From the NCBI RefSeq assembly GCF_022810765.1, contig NZ_CP094494.1:1488001-1552000 (forward strand): a stretch of 64,000 bases of DNA, given 5' to 3'. The notes under the pieces are model-generated. The model worked only from the letters and a program-made list of their open reading frames with translations, was not told the DNA's origin and did no database searches. Positions 51,628 to 59,061 of the stretch are shown piece by piece. Numbering within the stretch: the stretch's first letter is position 1; every line of letters starts with the position of its first letter. Made by a program: the position numbers and the translations under genes. Source of the DNA: Winogradskyella sp. MH6 (lineage in GTDB: Bacteria > Bacteroidota > Bacteroidia > Flavobacteriales > Flavobacteriaceae).

Positions 51628-53901
51628 TTATTCTTCTTGGTCAGAAATCAGTTTAGCAGGTTTAACAGAGCTGTCATGCGATTGATAGTACTCCTCTAAG
51701 AGATTCATCATAGCGGTCAATAGGTCTTTAGTTTCTAGTAATAAACTAAAATATAGCGTTGTGTTTTTAGGACTTGATTCTTCGCTTCTTGTACGTTCTA
51801 CCTGCTTTTGTATTTTGTCTTTGACTAAATTAAAGATCTCAGTTTTTCTTTCTAGGACAGCACCAATTTGCTCAAAAGATCTAGACTCAAATGCAGTTTG
51901 TGTTGTTGCAAATAATGTCTCTAGTTTTGTGTCTAAATCCTTAAGTTCTTTTATCTGGCTAAACTTTAACTTTTTGTGATTATTGTTAACGTGTTTATGG
52001 CTTGCTTTAGAAATATAGTCTAAAGATTGGGTTATGTCTTGTAAATGCCCAAGTATATTAATATAGAAATTACTAGCAGCAACACTAGGTTCATCTAGAT
52101 TTCTGATAAAATAGAAAATATTGTCCTTAAGATCATCAATTTCAGTTGATAATTTGTCAATTTGTCTTCTATTCTTCTTTAAGAGTTTTAAATCTTGTAC
52201 AGCTAAACCGTTAATGGCTGAGGTATAAATTCTGTTTCCACGCTTTATAACATTGGCAATATTTGAAGCGCTTTCGTGAATAACACCTTGTGTAGAACTA
52301 CTCTCGGCTTTTTCTAGCTGATCCTCTTCACGCATTATTTTAGAACTTTTGCGGTGAGCTAAATAACTTCTAATTAGTAAAACAATAGCTAGTACCAATA
52401 GTCCGGCTAAGGCATACCCACCACCAAAATATAAAATAAAAGCCATTATTGCTGCTGCAACAAAAGCACTAAAGGCCGTAAAGAACCAGCCTCCAATTAC
52501 ATTAAGTACTCCGGCAACTCTATATACCGCACTTTCACTTCCCCAAGCTCTGTCTGCTAAAGAGGTTCCCATAGCTACCATAAAAGTAACGTAGGTAGTA
52601 GAAAGTGGTAACTTCATAGATGTGGCAATAGAAATAAGAACAGATGCTACCATTAAATTAACAGCGGCTCTAACCAAATCAAAAGCAGGTTTGTCTTGCT
52701 CTTTTACCACAACTGTTGGTTTTAAGAACTGTTTTTCAGACCATTTTTTATACGAATTAGGTAGAATTCTATTCACGCTCTCATTAAGTCCAATAGTAAG
52801 CCTTACAATATTTCTAGACATATAATTAGGCTCAAAACGCTCTTTAACATCGTCCTGTCTTGACAAGTCAACCGAAGTTTTTACTACAGCTTTAGCTTTG
52901 CTAGAAAACCAAAGAGTAAGTACCATAATAAGTCCTGCAATAAGTAATAGGTAAGGTTCGGTTTGCACAGGTTCACCTAAAGCAGTCATTACGTAATTTG
53001 TAGGTTCGGCACCACTGATTGACCATGCCTCATAAGAGTTATATGCAGCAATCGGTACACCTATAAAGTTAACTAAATCATTTCCTGCGAAAGCAACAGC
53101 TAGTGCAAAAGTTCCAATAATGATGATGATGGTATAAATCTTGGCATTAAATAATTTAATGGCCAAAATTGAAAGTATAGTAAAAGCTAAAAAGCTTAAG
53201 CCTATAAAAGTAAAAGGGTTTGTATTTAAAAATTCTTTGACACTTGAAGGCATGAAAGCAGCATTCTTTAAACCTTTTACTATGATAAAGTACATAATTG
53301 AGGTAACTGCAAAACCACTAAAAATTGCACTATACCAATCTGGTTTTTCTTCAAATTTAAAAGACAATAGTAAGCGCGATACATATTGAATAATGGCACC
53401 AATGGTAAAAGCAACAACTACTGATAACAGAATACCAAGTATAATTTCAATGGCTTTTTCATTGTTAATATAATTACCTAAGTCTATTATGGATTGAGAA
53501 TTATCTGCATAAATTTTGATTAAAGCCACAGCAACCGAAGCACCTAATAATTCAAATACAATTGAAACCGTAGTAGAAGTAGGTAAACCAAGCGTGTTGA
53601 AGAAATCTAACAGTAGAATATCAGTTAACATCACAGCCATAAAAATGACCATGATTTCGTTAAACATAAACTCGCCAGGGTTAAAGATGCCTTTTCTTGC
53701 CACTTCCATCATACCACTAGACGTCATTGCTCCTATAGCAACACCAAGACTGGCAACAATCATTATGGTTTTGAAAGAAACGGCTTTAGAGCCAATAGCA
53801 GAATTTAAAAAATTTACAGCATCATTACTTACACCAACAACTAAGTCTGCAACAGCTAAGAATGCTAATGCAGCTAGCATATAGATATAAAGGTTTTCCA
53901 T
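51628..53901 (-). CDS. PiT-family inorganic phosphate transporter with C-terminal PhoU-like domain
   Basis: 757 residues, well above the usual 400-500 of bacterial Pit. The PiT signature appears twice: 'VGVSNDAVNFLNSAIGSKAVS' with 'LGLPTSTTVSIVFELLGAS' near the N terminus, and 'MKLPLSTTYVTFMVAMGTSLADRAWG' in the second half, with about twelve membrane segments. Residues ~570-740 are soluble helical hairpins ('RQIDKLSTEIDDLKDNIFYFIRNLDEPSVAASNFYINILGHLQDITQSLDYISKAS'), the pattern of PhoU/DUF47 partners that gate Pit. The fusion suggests built-in regulation of Pi uptake. The promoter is weak (GAAATTTG), with an 11-bp-spaced repeat pair just upstream. Confidence 0.9.
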   Translation of the reverse strand: MENLYIYMLAALAFLAVADLVVGVSNDAVNFLNSAIGSKAVSFKTIMIVASLGVAIGAMTSSGMMEVARKGIFNPGEFMFNEIMVIFMAVMLTDILLLDFFNTLGLPTSTTVSIVFELLGASVAVALIKIYADNSQSIIDLGNYINNEKAIEIILGILLSVVVAFTIGAIIQYVSRLLLSFKFEEKPDWYSAIFSGFAVTSIMYFIIVKGLKNAAFMPSSVKEFLNTNPFTFIGLSFLAFTILSILAIKLFNAKIYTIIIIIGTFALAVAFAGNDLVNFIGVPIAAYNSYEAWSISGAEPTNYVMTALGEPVQTEPYLLLIAGLIMVLTLWFSSKAKAVVKTSVDLSRQDDVKERFEPNYMSRNIVRLTIGLNESVNRILPNSYKKWSEKQFLKPTVVVKEQDKPAFDLVRAAVNLMVASVLISIATSMKLPLSTTYVTFMVAMGTSLADRAWGSESAVYRVAGVLNVIGGWFFTAFSAFVAAAIMAFILYFGGGYALAGLLVLAIVLLIRSYLAHRKSSKIMREEDQLEKAESSSTQGVIHESASNIANVIKRGNRIYTSAINGLAVQDLKLLKKNRRQIDKLSTEIDDLKDNIFYFIRNLDEPSVAASNFYINILGHLQDITQSLDYISKASHKHVNNNHKKLKFSQIKELKDLDTKLETLFATTQTAFESRSFEQIGAVLERKTEIFNLVKDKIQKQVERTRSEESSPKNTTLYFSLLLETKDLLTAMMNLLEEYYQSHDSSVKPAKLISDQEE

Positions 53902-53926: not shown

Positions 53927-53934
53927 CAAATTTC
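53927..53934 (-). promoter_or_regulatory. weak -7 element for the Pi transporter gene
   Basis: GAAATTTG on the minus strand differs from TAnnTTTG at the first base. A weak -7 with a repeat pair 18 bp upstream is what an activator-dependent promoter looks like. Confidence 0.4.
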
Positions 53935-53952: not shown

Positions 53953-53970
53953 TATGTTACCAAAATGTTA
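53953..53970 (+). promoter_or_regulatory. 11-bp-spaced repeat pair at the Pi transporter promoter
   Basis: TATGTTA (53953-53959), 4-bp spacer, AATGTTA (53964-53970). Same 7+4+7 layout as the array at 54100-54150. It covers the -33 region of the minus-strand transporter gene. Confidence 0.6.
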
Positions 53971-54099: not shown

Positions 54100-54150
54100 A
54101 ATGTTAATTTAATGTTACGTAATGGTTGTTTAAATGTAAATTAAATGTTA
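54100..54150 (+). promoter_or_regulatory. five-unit 11-bp phased repeat array
   Basis: Seven-base units begin at 54100 (AATGTTA), 54111 (AATGTTA), 54122 (ATGGTTG), 54133 (AATGTAA) and 54144 (AATGTTA), each 11 bp apart with 4-bp spacers. The last unit overlaps the -7 element TATGTTTG (54149-54156) by two bases. Direct repeats at one helical turn are typical of PhoB/OmpR-family response regulators. A further AATGTTA lies at 54035. Confidence 0.7.
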
Positions 54151-54156
54151 TGTTTG
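54149..54156 (+). promoter_or_regulatory. -7 promoter element for the MORN-type gene
   Basis: TATGTTTG, a perfect TAnnTTTG, 26 bp before the ATG at 54183 and abutting the repeat array. Confidence 0.6.
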
Positions 54157-54182: not shown

Positions 54183-54545
54183 ATGAATATGAGAAATTTA
54201 GTAATTGTTCTTATGATGCTTAGTGTAGCATTCTCTTATGCTCAAGACAGTAAAGAACCAAAGTTAGAGAAGAAAGGCGACTTAACTTACGTTACGTATT
54301 ATCATGATAATGGTGAAATAAGTCAAACAGGTGTGTTTAATGCAGATGGCAATATTCATGGTGAATGGAAAAGCTACGATGCTGAAGGTAATAAAGTAGC
54401 ATTAGGAAACTATGATAACGGTAAAAAAGTTGGAAAATGGTTTTTCTGGCAAGGAGAATCTTTAAAAGAAGTAGATTTTATCGATTCTAAAATTGTAAGT
54501 GTTAACCAATGGGATAACAAAACCAAAGTTGCCATTAACAACTAG
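54183..54545 (+). CDS. secreted MORN-repeat (YwqK-like) protein
   Basis: 120 residues with a signal peptide ('MRNLVIVLMMLSVAFSYAQ', the Met at 54189 being an equally good start). Three MORN_2-type strand pairs follow: 'LTYVTYYHDNGEISQTGVFN', 'GNIHGEWKSYDAEGNKVALGNYDNGKKVGKWFFWQ' and 'SLKEVDFIDSKIVSVNQW'. Proteins of this kind are sometimes labelled antitoxin YwqK, but no toxin gene is adjacent and this one is exported, so that label is not supported. Function unknown. The promoter carries the five-unit phased array. Confidence 0.85.
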   Translation: MNMRNLVIVLMMLSVAFSYAQDSKEPKLEKKGDLTYVTYYHDNGEISQTGVFNADGNIHGEWKSYDAEGNKVALGNYDNGKKVGKWFFWQGESLKEVDFIDSKIVSVNQWDNKTKVAINN

Positions 54546-54623: not shown

Positions 54624-57467
54624 TTAGAACTTAAGTGTGTAACCTAAAGATATTTCAGTACCAGGCTCTCTCAATGAAAAAATTTGATTGCTTGCACCAA
54701 AAGACTCATATTCACTTAATCTTTCGTCACCAAGTATATTAGATACTTTAAGGTCTATAGATGAACGTTGATTCTCGCCAAAAGATTTGTTTAACGTAAA
54801 GTTTAAACTGTTAAAAGGCTGAGTATAAACATCTGGAACTTCACGAATACCAACAACTTCTAAAGTTTCACCTTGTACGTTGTAGAATAATCCGGTTCTT
54901 AAACCAATATCACTATTGTCGTAATTTAAACCAACATTAATTAAATAAGGAGCTTGTCCTTGCATATCTCTTTTTCTGTCAATTGATTCTCCATCTCTGG
55001 CTGAAGCAACTCTACCGTTATACTCGTCATCAGACATGGTTAACTCAGATTTAATTAAAGAGAAATTGGCTGTTAGTTTAAGATTGTTTAAACCTTCAGA
55101 AATAAATCCTAATCGTTGTCTTGCTTCAAATTCTGCACCATAAACAACAGCGTCACCTAAGTTACCAACAGTAAGCTGTGTTGGAGCAGAGACAAAGAAT
55201 GTTTGCTCAATTACGTCTGTAAAGTCTTTGTAGAAACCACTTATAGCAAACATTTGTCCTTCTTCACCAAAAAACTCATAACGTATATCAAAGTTGTTGA
55301 TATATGTTGGTACTAAGTTAATATCACCAATAAACAATCTACTTGTAATTGGATCGAAGATTTGTGCTACAGAAGCTTCTTTAAAAGAAGGTCTTGCTGT
55401 AGTGCGAGAGTATGATGCTCTTAAATTAGTTTTATCGTTAACTGCATAAATAACATTAGCTGATGGGAATAAATCAAATTCATCTAAGATTAATTCTCTA
55501 TCAAATACATTATCAGCATCTTCACCAGTGTAGAATGAGCTAAAGAACTCAGTTCTTAAACCAACTACTGTTTTTAATTTTTCAGTGATATTAAATTCAG
55601 TTGAAAAATAAGTAGCTCCAATTTGTTGCTCACCTTCATAAGCATCTCTTGGGTTAAAGTTGTCTGTATAGACAACATAAGTACCAGCATCTGTTTCTGG
55701 TGTCCAAAGGTTTTCAGTAGCTAACAAATTATCTGCATTACCGCTTGCAATATAAGATTGATCTCCACGAATGTTAAAGGTAAAGTCATCAATACTAAAA
55801 TCTCTAAACTTATACGTGAATGCACCTCCAAATTTTATTTTAGCTTGGCGACCAAATAACTCTACAGTTTTGTCAAAATCTGCTTTACCAGCCCAAGACT
55901 CTTCAAGTAAGTTTCTCCATAACTGAATAGGTAATGTTGAAGCAGAAGGACTTAAGAATGAATTACCATTATCAGCTTGCTGAAATGGCGTAATTCTATG
56001 GTTTTTATCCATTACCTTAGAGAAGGTAGGAGATAATTTCCATTCAAAGTTAAAAGGCTTATCGTCTGTAATGCTATTTAACCTGTGCTTACCCGTAAGA
56101 AATAAGTTGGTAATTGATCGCTCTGTATAGGTAATAGAGTTTTTTGTTAGTGGTTCTAATCCACCTCCAGTACCGTCCTGAGATATTACCTGGTTAAAGA
56201 AACCTGCAGTAGACTCACCATTTTGTACATGAAGTAAATTTACCTTAAACTTAGATTTATCCGTTTTATAAGCTAAACCTAACATACCATTTAAAATCAC
56301 ATTGTTAATACCTTCAGAACCTTTAGAATCTAGAGCAGCAATTAACTCATTGTCTGATGTGTCTTGTGGGTTTTTTATGTATGCACCATCAAATCTGTTT
56401 TTATAAAACGTTGTTTCGTTTTTATAAGAGAATGATGCTTGGTAACCTAATTTATCATCACCAATGTTGTATTGATTGCCCAAGGTAAAACCAAAGTCGT
56501 AGTTCATACCACTAGTTTCTTGCTTAGCTGCTAGTTCTTTTTCAAAACTATTTGTAAGTGTTGTAAGTGTTGTAGTATTAATACCATTACCTAGTACTCC
56601 TTCCTCAAATTGATATCTGTTAACAGGTACATTTCGCATACCATCATCATAACCTAACCAGTCAGTATCACTACCTCCTGATGTTAAATATGAATTATTG
56701 AAATGCATGTCTGGGTTGTAACCACCTCCCAATGAAATTGAATATTCAGCCTTACTTGGAAAATCTTTTGTAACTATATCTACAATACCACCAGTAAAGT
56801 CTGCTGGATATTCAGCAGATGCAGACTTTAAAACAATAACATTGTCAAGAATATTTGTTGGAAATAAATCCATTTGAATTGTGTTACGGTCTGGATCTAA
56901 ACCTGGGATATCAATACCATTTAAGATAGACTTTGTATAGCGATCACCAAGACCACGTACAAATACATATTTATCACCTTGTATAGAAACACCAGGAACA
57001 CTTTTTACAGCAGCAGCAACATTACTTGCTCCAGTACTTTTAATAGCCTGAGAAGACAAACCATCCATTACAACTGCTGATTTTTTTTGTAAATTTAAAA
57101 CAGCACTTTCTGTGTTTCTTTTTGTAGTTGTAGTAATTACAACTGTGTCTAAAGAATTAGTTTCCATCAAAACATCTAAGGTAAATACCTCGCCGTTTTT
57201 TATGACAACATCTGAAATTTCTTTAGTTGCATACCCAACAAAGGAGAAAACCAATGTGTAAGTACCTTCTTCTAGCTCCATTTCAAACTTTCCATCAAAA
57301 TCTGTAGTAACACCTTTTGAGGTACCTTTAACTAAAATGTTAGCAAAAGCCATTGGTTCATTAAATTCACCATCGATTACTGTTCCGGCTACTTTTCCTT
57401 GTGAGAATGCTGTAGATGTCGCTGAAATGAAAATAAAAAGAGCTAAAACTTTTATTATATGTTTCAT
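54624..57467 (-). CDS. TonB-dependent outer-membrane receptor
   Basis: 947 residues: signal peptide ('KVLALFIFISATSTAFSQ'), an N-terminal CarboxypepD_reg-like domain (about 24-110, 'KVAGTVIDGEFNEPMAFANILVKGTSKG'), a plug domain (about 120-240, 'VAAAVKSVPGVSIQGDKYVFVRGLGDRYTKSILNGIDIPG'), then a 22-strand-type barrel ending in an aromatic residue ('SLGYTLKF'). It imports a bulky substrate using TonB energy. It lacks a SusD partner. Instead, a beta-helix lipoprotein gene lies upstream in the same direction, 69 bp away, with a long hairpin between them. Substrate unknown. Confidence 0.94.
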   Translation of the reverse strand: MKHIIKVLALFIFISATSTAFSQGKVAGTVIDGEFNEPMAFANILVKGTSKGVTTDFDGKFEMELEEGTYTLVFSFVGYATKEISDVVIKNGEVFTLDVLMETNSLDTVVITTTTKRNTESAVLNLQKKSAVVMDGLSSQAIKSTGASNVAAAVKSVPGVSIQGDKYVFVRGLGDRYTKSILNGIDIPGLDPDRNTIQMDLFPTNILDNVIVLKSASAEYPADFTGGIVDIVTKDFPSKAEYSISLGGGYNPDMHFNNSYLTSGGSDTDWLGYDDGMRNVPVNRYQFEEGVLGNGINTTTLTTLTNSFEKELAAKQETSGMNYDFGFTLGNQYNIGDDKLGYQASFSYKNETTFYKNRFDGAYIKNPQDTSDNELIAALDSKGSEGINNVILNGMLGLAYKTDKSKFKVNLLHVQNGESTAGFFNQVISQDGTGGGLEPLTKNSITYTERSITNLFLTGKHRLNSITDDKPFNFEWKLSPTFSKVMDKNHRITPFQQADNGNSFLSPSASTLPIQLWRNLLEESWAGKADFDKTVELFGRQAKIKFGGAFTYKFRDFSIDDFTFNIRGDQSYIASGNADNLLATENLWTPETDAGTYVVYTDNFNPRDAYEGEQQIGATYFSTEFNITEKLKTVVGLRTEFFSSFYTGEDADNVFDRELILDEFDLFPSANVIYAVNDKTNLRASYSRTTARPSFKEASVAQIFDPITSRLFIGDINLVPTYINNFDIRYEFFGEEGQMFAISGFYKDFTDVIEQTFFVSAPTQLTVGNLGDAVVYGAEFEARQRLGFISEGLNNLKLTANFSLIKSELTMSDDEYNGRVASARDGESIDRKRDMQGQAPYLINVGLNYDNSDIGLRTGLFYNVQGETLEVVGIREVPDVYTQPFNSLNFTLNKSFGENQRSSIDLKVSNILGDERLSEYESFGASNQIFSLREPGTEISLGYTLKF

Positions 57468-57536: not shown

Positions 57537-58814
57537 TTAGAATCCTAAACCACCTTCTGCATTAGCATAGGTCCAGCTAAGGTTAGAAGTAGTAGCACCA
57601 ACTGTTTGTGCACCTTCTGTAACTGCAGTAGCAGTAGATCCAAAGCCAGATACAGTAACTGTTTCTGCTTTGTTAGCAAAAATGCTAGTAACATCTGTTA
57701 CACCTTCAGGTAATACTATTTCCCAAGCACCAAATGTTAAGATACCATTGTTATAGTTTGTTGCAACACCATCGTTATCTAATTCAACGTCAGATTCAGC
57801 TTTAAAACCATATGCATAAACATTTTCTGTATGACCTTGTGCGTTACTTCTGTAATCAGCATACTCACCGTTTGCAGTTACAGTATTACCAATGATTGTT
57901 GCATTTCTTAAAGTGAATGATCCAGAACCTGTTCCTTCAGGACCGTCAATTTCGAAAGCGTGATCAGAAATATCACCTAAAACAACAACTACATTGTCAA
58001 CTGTTCCAGCGTAAGCTTGGTCAATATCTATAGCGTCATCACCTTGAGCCCATACTAAAATGTTAGATGCATCAACAGTACCTCCAAAGAATTCTACACC
58101 GTCATCAACATTACCAACAACCTCAATATTGTCTATAATTGTACCAGCACCAACACCACCTAAAGTAAGACCGTTGATTTCGTTACCTTCACCAATTAAA
58201 GCACCACCATGACGAATAGAAATATATCTCATGCTACCAGAACTATCGTTTTCATCTGTACCACCATAAAGACCAAAAGTATCATCTGCAGGAATACCTT
58301 CAATTTGAGCTTCAACGATATCTCCAGAGAATGAACAAGGTGCATTACCTAATACGATTAAACCTCCCCAAAGACCTCTGTCGTTTTCATCTAAATTAGT
58401 ACCAGCAGTTTGACCGCAAGTAATGTTATCTTGTGTAGATGTGAAGATAATTGGCTCAGAAGCTGTACCGTTAGCGTTAAGAGTACCACCTCTTGCTACA
58501 ATTAAAGCAGAAGCTAAAGAACCAGTTCCTGAAGAACCTTTAATGATAGTTCCAGGATTGATAGTTAAAGTTGCTCCAGCAGGTACAACAACCTTTTGGT
58601 TTAATTGGTAAATGTTGTCATTGGTCCAAACATCACCATCAGTTATTTCACCAGTTACAGTTACAACAGGACAGTCGTCAGTTGAACCACCACCTGGATT
58701 TTCATTTATTATTGTCGTAGATGTCTCTACAATTAAAGGAGCATCATCATCTTTAAAACAACTAGTAAATACTAGTGTAGAAGTTACTAACGCGATTAAA
58801 AGTAATTTTTTCAT
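57537..58814 (-). CDS. predicted surface-exposed beta-helix lipoprotein
   Basis: 425 residues. The lipobox is 'TSCF' (Cys19), followed at once by Phe-Lys-Asp-Asp-Asp. Lys plus two acids right after the cysteine is the Bacteroidota lipoprotein export signal, so the protein is predicted on the cell surface. A short linker leads to repeating turns rich in G, N, D, T and V ('VPAGATLTINPGTIIKG', 'LGGVGAGTIIDNIEVVGNVDDGVEFFGGTVDASNILV'), the pattern of a right-handed parallel beta-helix, with three mature cysteines in the first half. No catalytic motif of a polysaccharide lyase or pectinase is evident. First gene of the pair with the TonB receptor; it may bind the receptor's substrate. Confidence 0.85.
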   Translation of the reverse strand: MKKLLLIALVTSTLVFTSCFKDDDAPLIVETSTTIINENPGGGSTDDCPVVTVTGEITDGDVWTNDNIYQLNQKVVVPAGATLTINPGTIIKGSSGTGSLASALIVARGGTLNANGTASEPIIFTSTQDNITCGQTAGTNLDENDRGLWGGLIVLGNAPCSFSGDIVEAQIEGIPADDTFGLYGGTDENDSSGSMRYISIRHGGALIGEGNEINGLTLGGVGAGTIIDNIEVVGNVDDGVEFFGGTVDASNILVWAQGDDAIDIDQAYAGTVDNVVVVLGDISDHAFEIDGPEGTGSGSFTLRNATIIGNTVTANGEYADYRSNAQGHTENVYAYGFKAESDVELDNDGVATNYNNGILTFGAWEIVLPEGVTDVTSIFANKAETVTVSGFGSTATAVTEGAQTVGATTSNLSWTYANAEGGLGF

Positions 58815-58887: not shown

Positions 58888-58938
58888 GTTACTCAATGAT
58901 TAAAGTTTTGTGACCAAAAAGTTAGTTAAAGGTTAGTT
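58888..58938 (-). promoter_or_regulatory. 11-bp phased GTTA units upstream of the lipoprotein gene
   Basis: On the plus strand GTTACTC at 58888, GTTAGTT at 58921 and GTTAGTT at 58932: distances of 33 and 11 bp, all multiples of one 11-bp phase. They lie 22-80 bp upstream of the weak -7 element. Confidence 0.45.
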
Positions 58939-59061
58939 TAATATTAAGCGAATTAGCGTTAAGGATACAATTTCTTAACATTGTAAAATATGATAATTGA
59001 AAACAGTTTTTCTAAATGATTCTTTATCAATTTATTTATCTTGCATCTTTAATTTTAAGAT

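Follow-up and report, generated by a model that had tools for sequence, protein, structure and literature searches.

The pit and MORN_2 genes and the repeat array between them

The window, by which we mean the whole 64-kb stretch of DNA that was analysed, belongs to a 3.5-Mb genome whose nearest relatives, judged by the pit protein, are Winogradskyella. On its minus strand lies pit (51628..53901), which encodes a Pi transporter of 757 residues (PF01384, E 4.9e-30). The direct neighbour of pit on the plus strand (54183..54545), here called the MORN_2 gene, encodes a 120-residue protein with a signal-peptide-like start, as judged by eye, and one MORN_2 repeat that falls below the Pfam cut-off (PF07661, E 2.3e-5, 24.5 bits against a cut-off of 29.6). 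Genes for a TonB-dependent receptor (54624..57467, minus strand; PF00593, PF07715 and PF13715) and for a lipoprotein-like protein of 425 residues (57537..58814, minus strand) complete the cluster. No Pfam family was matched by the latter, which is related to lipoproteins encoded near phoBR elsewhere and shares 50% and 32% identity with two box-bearing proteins near phoB (L280 and L282). A preliminary description of this DNA had credited the transporter with a PhoU-like domain; its identification as a Pi transporter stands, whereas no PhoU family appears among the Pfam matches of the C-terminal 237 residues up to E 10.

The array between the two divergent genes consists of five 7-bp units with a period of exactly 11 bp (54100-54150): AATGTTA at 54100, AATGTTA at 54111, ATGGTTG at 54122, AATGTAA at 54133 and AATGTTA at 54144, which match the unit consensus at 7, 7, 4, 6 and 7 of 7 positions, respectively. 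The exact period, the identity of units 1, 2 and 5 and the GTT/GTA core present in all five units had been described before and are borne out. So is the overlap, by two bases, of unit 5 (54144..54150, plus strand) with TATGTTTG (54149..54156, plus strand), which we take to be the Bacteroidota -7 element (consensus TAnnTTTG) of the MORN_2 promoter. A TTG inside unit 3 (54126..54128, plus strand), 20 bp before the -7, is the likely -33 element.

A chance repeat would suit AT-rich DNA such as this, and weaker matches occur elsewhere in the window; the two-unit pattern with at most two mismatches occurs eight times in the window against 3.7 expected, only a mild enrichment. Against chance, the five units score 31 of 35, a value never reached when the 64-kb window was shuffled 200 times by dinucleotides (best shuffle 26), although this rarity is somewhat overstated because the unit consensus was derived from the array itself. 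Boxes of the form TAAC-N7-TAAC scoring at least 12/14 number only three in the window, all within this gene cluster. Chance is refuted by conservation, the box being kept in 59 of 59 related promoters, and its probability is negligible.

This conservation was followed in the best 80 of 339 pit relatives. Relatives of MORN_2, with 40-100% identity, were found by tblastn on the strand opposite to pit in 59 of the 80 loci, one of them (L080) on the other side of pit. Conservation upstream of orthologues, on which the preliminary description had staked its proposal, holds at every one of the 59: a box of two units, scoring at least 12/14, lies within 150 bp of the MORN_2 start, against 2.2 expected from shuffles. 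In 50 of the 59 loci the MORN_2 start follows the first base of the array at a distance of 81-91 bp. The distance of the array to pit varies from about 200 bp to about 1.65 kb, with other genes between in some relatives, and pit lies from about 270 bp to 1.7 kb away from MORN_2. Where pit and MORN_2 adjoin, the array stands between them. It remains with MORN_2 where an OprP-type porin gene (L062 and L076) or two other genes (L022 and L024) intervene and pit lies about 1.6 kb off. Because it is phase-locked to MORN_2 wherever pit lies, the array is, by this comparison of sequences, part of the MORN_2 promoter and not of that of the divergent Pi transporter, to which it had earlier been tied; pit has a separate box of its own. 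A role as a distant enhancer of pit would suit the orientation of the array, which is that of pit's own box, and its distance from pit, which in the window it precedes by about 200-250 bp. As the array moves with MORN_2, such an enhancer was rejected; it is largely refuted and very improbable.

Conservation also bears on how the array is built. Over the 59 MORN_2 loci the mean scores of units 1 to 5 are 6.8, 6.9, 5.1, 5.4 and 4.8 of 7. TAnnTT[TC]G follows the box at gap 31 in 48 loci and at gap 32 in two, and 47 loci have a TTG whose first base lies 20-24 bp ahead of the -7. Units 1-4 are conserved in the 48 promoters with identical spacing. Unit 4 sits in the -33/-7 spacer, a stretch without known promoter constraint, yet is conserved (G36 0.96, T37 1.00, A39 0.98), whereas the columns of unit 5 outside the -7 reach only 0.54-0.73. 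Since unit 4 is conserved inside the spacer and unit 5 is constrained only at the -7, we read the array as two tandem boxes, formed by units 1-2 and units 3-4, the second of which would lie on the -33 and the spacer. Box 1 (54100..54117, minus strand) reads TAACATTAAATTAACATT on the minus strand, has nearly invariant units and ends 8 bp before the -33 TTG; box 2 (54122..54139, minus strand) overlaps the -33 TTG and the -33/-7 spacer. Five equal units were rejected for want of clear conservation of unit 5 beyond the -7, so that the array first described is real in its score but independently supported in only four of its units.

The Pho-type box of pit (53953..53970, minus strand) reads TAACATTTTGGTAACATA and has the sense orientation. 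Sense boxes of at least 12/14 occur upstream of pit in 69 of the 80 loci, against 1.0 expected, and the remaining 11 have a box scoring 10-11 at about the same place, ten of them still with TAAC-N7-TAAC. A -7-like element, GAAATTTG (53927..53934, minus strand), follows the box after 18 bp, without a -33. All 80 loci have G or C as the first base of this element, and a TTG near -33 is found in only 13 of the 80. In 52 of the 69 loci the gap from the box to [GT]AnnTT[TA]G is 18; the other 17 have no such element at gaps of 14-23. As pit is without a -33 and has an off-consensus -7, while MORN_2 has both elements, pit seems to have a weak promoter that depends on an activator, and MORN_2 a complete one.

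No box lies directly upstream of the TonB-dependent receptor gene. A weaker array of three units (TAATATT, TAACCTT and TAACTTT; 58918..58946, minus strand) stands 104-132 bp upstream of the lipoprotein gene, and a comparable array is present in all three relatives read.

Distribution of the box and its candidate regulator

In 60 genomes of the genus, TAACATTN4TAACATW has 182 matches against 41 for the reversed pattern. Ninety boxes were examined, of which 30 were returned automatically and 60 were picked among the matches listed of the 182; the latter omitted recognised pit and MORN_2 boxes and some others, so that group sizes are not frequencies. Recurrent target groups take in 84 of the 90 boxes of this chosen set, and only one of the 90 was flagged inside an ORF. 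The concentration of matches in promoters, which the preliminary description had held to be decisive, is therefore seen in this non-random sample of related genomes. Box orientation is constant in every recurrent group except the aroC/metallophosphoesterase pair. The targets in the genus comprise pit, MORN_2, a CAP-domain lipoprotein, DUF4870/DUF4442, a Metallophos_2 protein adjoining aroC, which may be a relative of PlcP, and a CoA-binding protein with a divergent outer-membrane protein. The 44-bp pattern box-N18-[GT]AnnTTnG has 63 matches in the same 60 genomes against one reversed, and 29 of the 63 were inspected (pit 16, CAP protein 7, a 492-residue protein 5, without assignment 1).

Across 296 genomes of the order the same pattern has 44 matches against eight reversed. 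Twenty-one of the 44 are phosphate-linked: 14 at pit, three at a Na/Pi cotransporter, one at DUF47/PhoU_div, one at Porin_O_P and two at the lipoprotein family of the window. Others stand at genes similar to the TonB receptor of the window (4), pirin-like genes recognised by eye (4), a porin-like gene (1) and a CAP protein gene (1); one more meets the end of its contig next to phoB, and the remaining 12 precede genes without assignment. A phoB match is present in 35 of the 38 genomes with the pattern and in 173 of the 258 without it (p = 0.001, ignoring genome size and kinship), that is in 208 of 296 overall at E 1e-50, the three pattern genomes without phoB being G238, G337 and G342. That phoB presence tracks the pattern across the order is only suggestive.

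Further phosphate genes carry the box. Two genomes (G046 and G112) have pstS, an ABC ATPase gene (by eye), phoU and nptA beside divergent phoBR, with a box before nptA; PstS, PhoU and nptA of G046 were confirmed with Pfam. Thirty PBP_like_2 loci among the 53 matches listed were compared. True PstS, recognised by the motif DGSSTV, has a box within 300 bp in 12 of 15 loci, nine of them sense (0.65 expected from shuffles), whereas the non-Pst paralogues, two of whose loci have less than 300 bp upstream, have one in 1 of 15 (0.37 expected from shuffles). The difference (Fisher p = 1.2e-4; p = 0.005 for sense boxes only) is overstated by these p values, since the members of each group are kin and the groups belong for the most part to different families, lineage being a confounder. 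Of 37 loci of OprP-type porin genes, about three of them with cut or misplaced starts, 28 have a sense box.

At PhoX genes a box of 12/14 is found upstream in only four of 18 loci, all weak and with one TAAC missing; the four are distant PhoX relatives (L111, L113, L116 and L117) with the box at -111 to -174. The eight strongest PhoX matches (L103-L109 and L120) have no box within 300 bp upstream, and PhoX genes are strongly Pi-induced in Flavobacterium johnsoniae (PMC8115612). Other regulators may thus mediate some of the response to low Pi. The distant PhoX match of the own genome (L115, C1:669522-670319) contains one in-frame TGA, and its start is not properly placed.

Five Trans_reg_C proteins are encoded in the own genome. 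When four of its response regulators were compared with NCBIfam, only one had PhoB as its best match and two were closest to RprY. The candidate PhoB (C1:1644617-1645294; PF00486, E 4.7e-24), encoded next to a histidine kinase gene, matches TIGR02154 PhoB best, with 219 bits, under the equivalog cut-off of 296 bits, and its gene was found in 41 of 41 genus genomes. All 30 phoB loci studied from these 41 genomes have a reversed box of the AATGTTAnnnAATTGTTA type at a fixed place upstream, which ends 38-39 bp before a -7-like element and clear of the -33 in the loci measured by eye. Among genomes of the same family, L285 has a reversed box of 12/14 at phoB; a shifted match of 12 and one of 11 occur in L282 and L284.

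The observed arrays, with their positions, conservation and gene association, are very probably explained by an operator of the phosphate response regulator PhoB, i.e. a Flavobacteriales Pho box, which would consist of two TTAACAT-type 7-mers with 4-bp spacers and an 11-bp period. Boxes mark the promoters of genes for phosphate uptake (pit, OprP-type porin, nptA and true pstS) as well as that of phoB itself, which upholds the Pho-type regulator of the PhoB/OmpR class proposed earlier. Another OmpR-family regulator, for instance one of the two RprY-like proteins, might bind the array instead, the overlap with phosphate genes being secondary. OmpR-family sites resemble each other, several targets are not phosphate genes, and a PhoP motif of Riemerella, discussed below, was related to that of ArcA by its authors (PMC9603813). 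Opposed to this are the box that all 30 phoB loci share and the boxes at pst, pit, OprP and nptA genes. Moreover, no box of at least 11/14 was found in the 300 bp directly upstream of the three other own response-regulator genes, a weak check for the two that follow another gene and would have an operon promoter outside this range. We consider binding by another family member unlikely and prefer PhoB.

In Escherichia coli, the box takes the place of the upstream promoter element where a gene is activated, and the targets include pst and phoB. The PHO box is described as two 7-nt direct repeats with 4-nt spacers, forming 11-nt units that are bound head to tail, with a consensus that is said to differ from one species to another (PMC4415409). 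The predicted box likewise has at least two 7-nt direct repeats with 4-nt spacers at an 11-bp period. It differs in having TTAACAT-type half-sites where E. coli has CTGTCAT, as the preliminary description recognised, in its Bacteroidota promoter elements, and in the pair of boxes that lie in reverse across the core promoter of MORN_2. The PhoP box of Bacillus subtilis consists of TTAACA repeats, with a 6-mer and a period almost as here, but belongs to another phylum and another promoter type. In this organism PhoP~P represses tagAB and activates tuaA-H (PMC6232261), and the former may be a precedent for repression of MORN_2.

Riemerella anatipestifer is a flavobacterium, and the motif of its PhoP appears compatible with the box described here. 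Its most conserved nucleotides in DAP-seq are TTTAACA; PhoP gave 583 peaks and binds DNA upstream of the operon that encodes it, while the listed direct targets are mostly not phosphate genes (PMC9603813). The likeness is one of motif. In F. johnsoniae, the Pi-starvation regulon resembles the one proposed here in that phoBR adjoins genes for a TonB receptor and an F-type lipoprotein, and in its nucleases and PlcP, but it was defined by expression and its Table 1 lists no MORN_2 gene; the word 'motif' is absent from the main text (PMC8115612). Bacteroides fragilis PhoB binds its pstC promoter, in a paper whose main text contains neither 'consensus' nor 'footprint' (PMC3547664). Putative Pho boxes at plcP clusters of marine bacteria, flavobacteria included, are reported with no sequence in the accessible parts of the paper (PMC4796936). 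No stated Pho-box consensus for Flavobacteriales or Bacteroidota was found in the accessible parts of the open-licence literature, nor was a consensus found stated in those on B. subtilis PhoP, RprY motifs, or MORN/YwqK and phosphate. The PHO-box layout is known; the proposed TTAACAT-type sequence for Flavobacteriales appears to be new.

Proposed regulation of pit and MORN_2

At pit, as at activated genes of E. coli, a box at fixed spacing replaces the upstream promoter element. In the scheme that we infer, a single sense box 18 bp before this -33-less promoter would turn on pit when phosphate is low. The two tandem boxes at 54100-54139 are reversed relative to MORN_2, box 1 just upstream of the -33 and box 2 on the -33 and spacer. 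Phosphorylated PhoB would fill box 1 and then box 2, and the filled boxes would shut off the otherwise complete MORN_2 promoter. Repression of MORN_2 by PhoB, proposed because the two boxes cover its -33 and spacer, is somewhat favoured: conservation places box 2 over the -33 and spacer, as would suit a repressing Pho operator, and a lowered transcription is predicted.

Orientation was rejected as a sure sign of repression. The phoB box is reversed as well, and in F. johnsoniae phoB expression rises when Pi is low (PMC8115612), so that orientation alone does not mean repression; the phoB box, however, ends clear of the -33 in the loci measured. For the same reason PhoB might activate MORN_2 from box 1, reversed upstream of the -33, as it may at phoB, where the reversed box is present in 30 of 30 loci; the end of box 1, 8 bp before the -33 TTG, could be a place for an activator. 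Such activation is possible but doubtful, since a conserved box 2 covers the -33 and spacer, and since the -33 TTG in 47 of 59 loci and the consensus-like -7 in 48 of 59 should make an activator needless.

With repression retained as the preferred reading, the two promoters would form a two-way grammar, in which Pi import is switched on from a single forward box, 18 bp ahead of the -7 in a promoter without -33, and two reversed tandem boxes over an intact -33 and -7 switch off the MORN_2 gene beside it, MORN_2 being an unrecognised partner in phosphate homeostasis. For this combined scheme the arguments seem to us evenly balanced. Flavobacteria play an important part as degraders, both in the sea and on plants; what the accessible parts of the literature say of their phosphate response comes mainly from expression data. 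With a concrete operator at a fixed distance from the promoter elements, sequence would largely suffice to predict the PhoB regulon throughout the order. The locus also offers a testable case of divergent neighbours that a single regulator may switch in opposite directions. If true, the scheme would also point to the small conserved MORN_2 protein as a part of phosphate physiology.

Boxes at other genes and variant repeats

Recurrent boxes are also found at genes without evident phosphate link, namely those of DUF4870/DUF4442, the CoA-binding protein, the ribonucleotide reductase small chain (by Pfam; L012, L192 and L200), a MOSC-like protein and an aat-like protein (by eye; L127, L189 and L209); a phosphoglycerate mutase-like gene (by eye; L131 and L185) is a further case without such a link. 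The box at the aroC/Metallophos_2 pair (L015, at C1:2976417 of the own genome, L190, L197 and L199) varies in orientation among genomes. The divergent DUF4870/DUF4442 promoter, seen at 24 genus loci (L009, at G000:C1:2328166 of the own genome, L126, L135-L139 and others), has besides the box a long, nearly invariant GTACTATGCGTAACATAATACCTT before TATATTTG, and a second regulator may bind this invariant stretch.

Two variants of the repeat keep the 18-bp spacing. Pirin-like genes (by eye) of four genomes of the same family (L325, L327, L328 and L330) have TAACGATTTTATAAC-type repeats, a different half-site in the same layout as the Pho-type box. The gene of the 492-residue protein, which looks secreted, has TAACTATTACTTAACAAA-type repeats with an unusual second half-site in five genus genomes (L221, L224, L226, L230 and L232).
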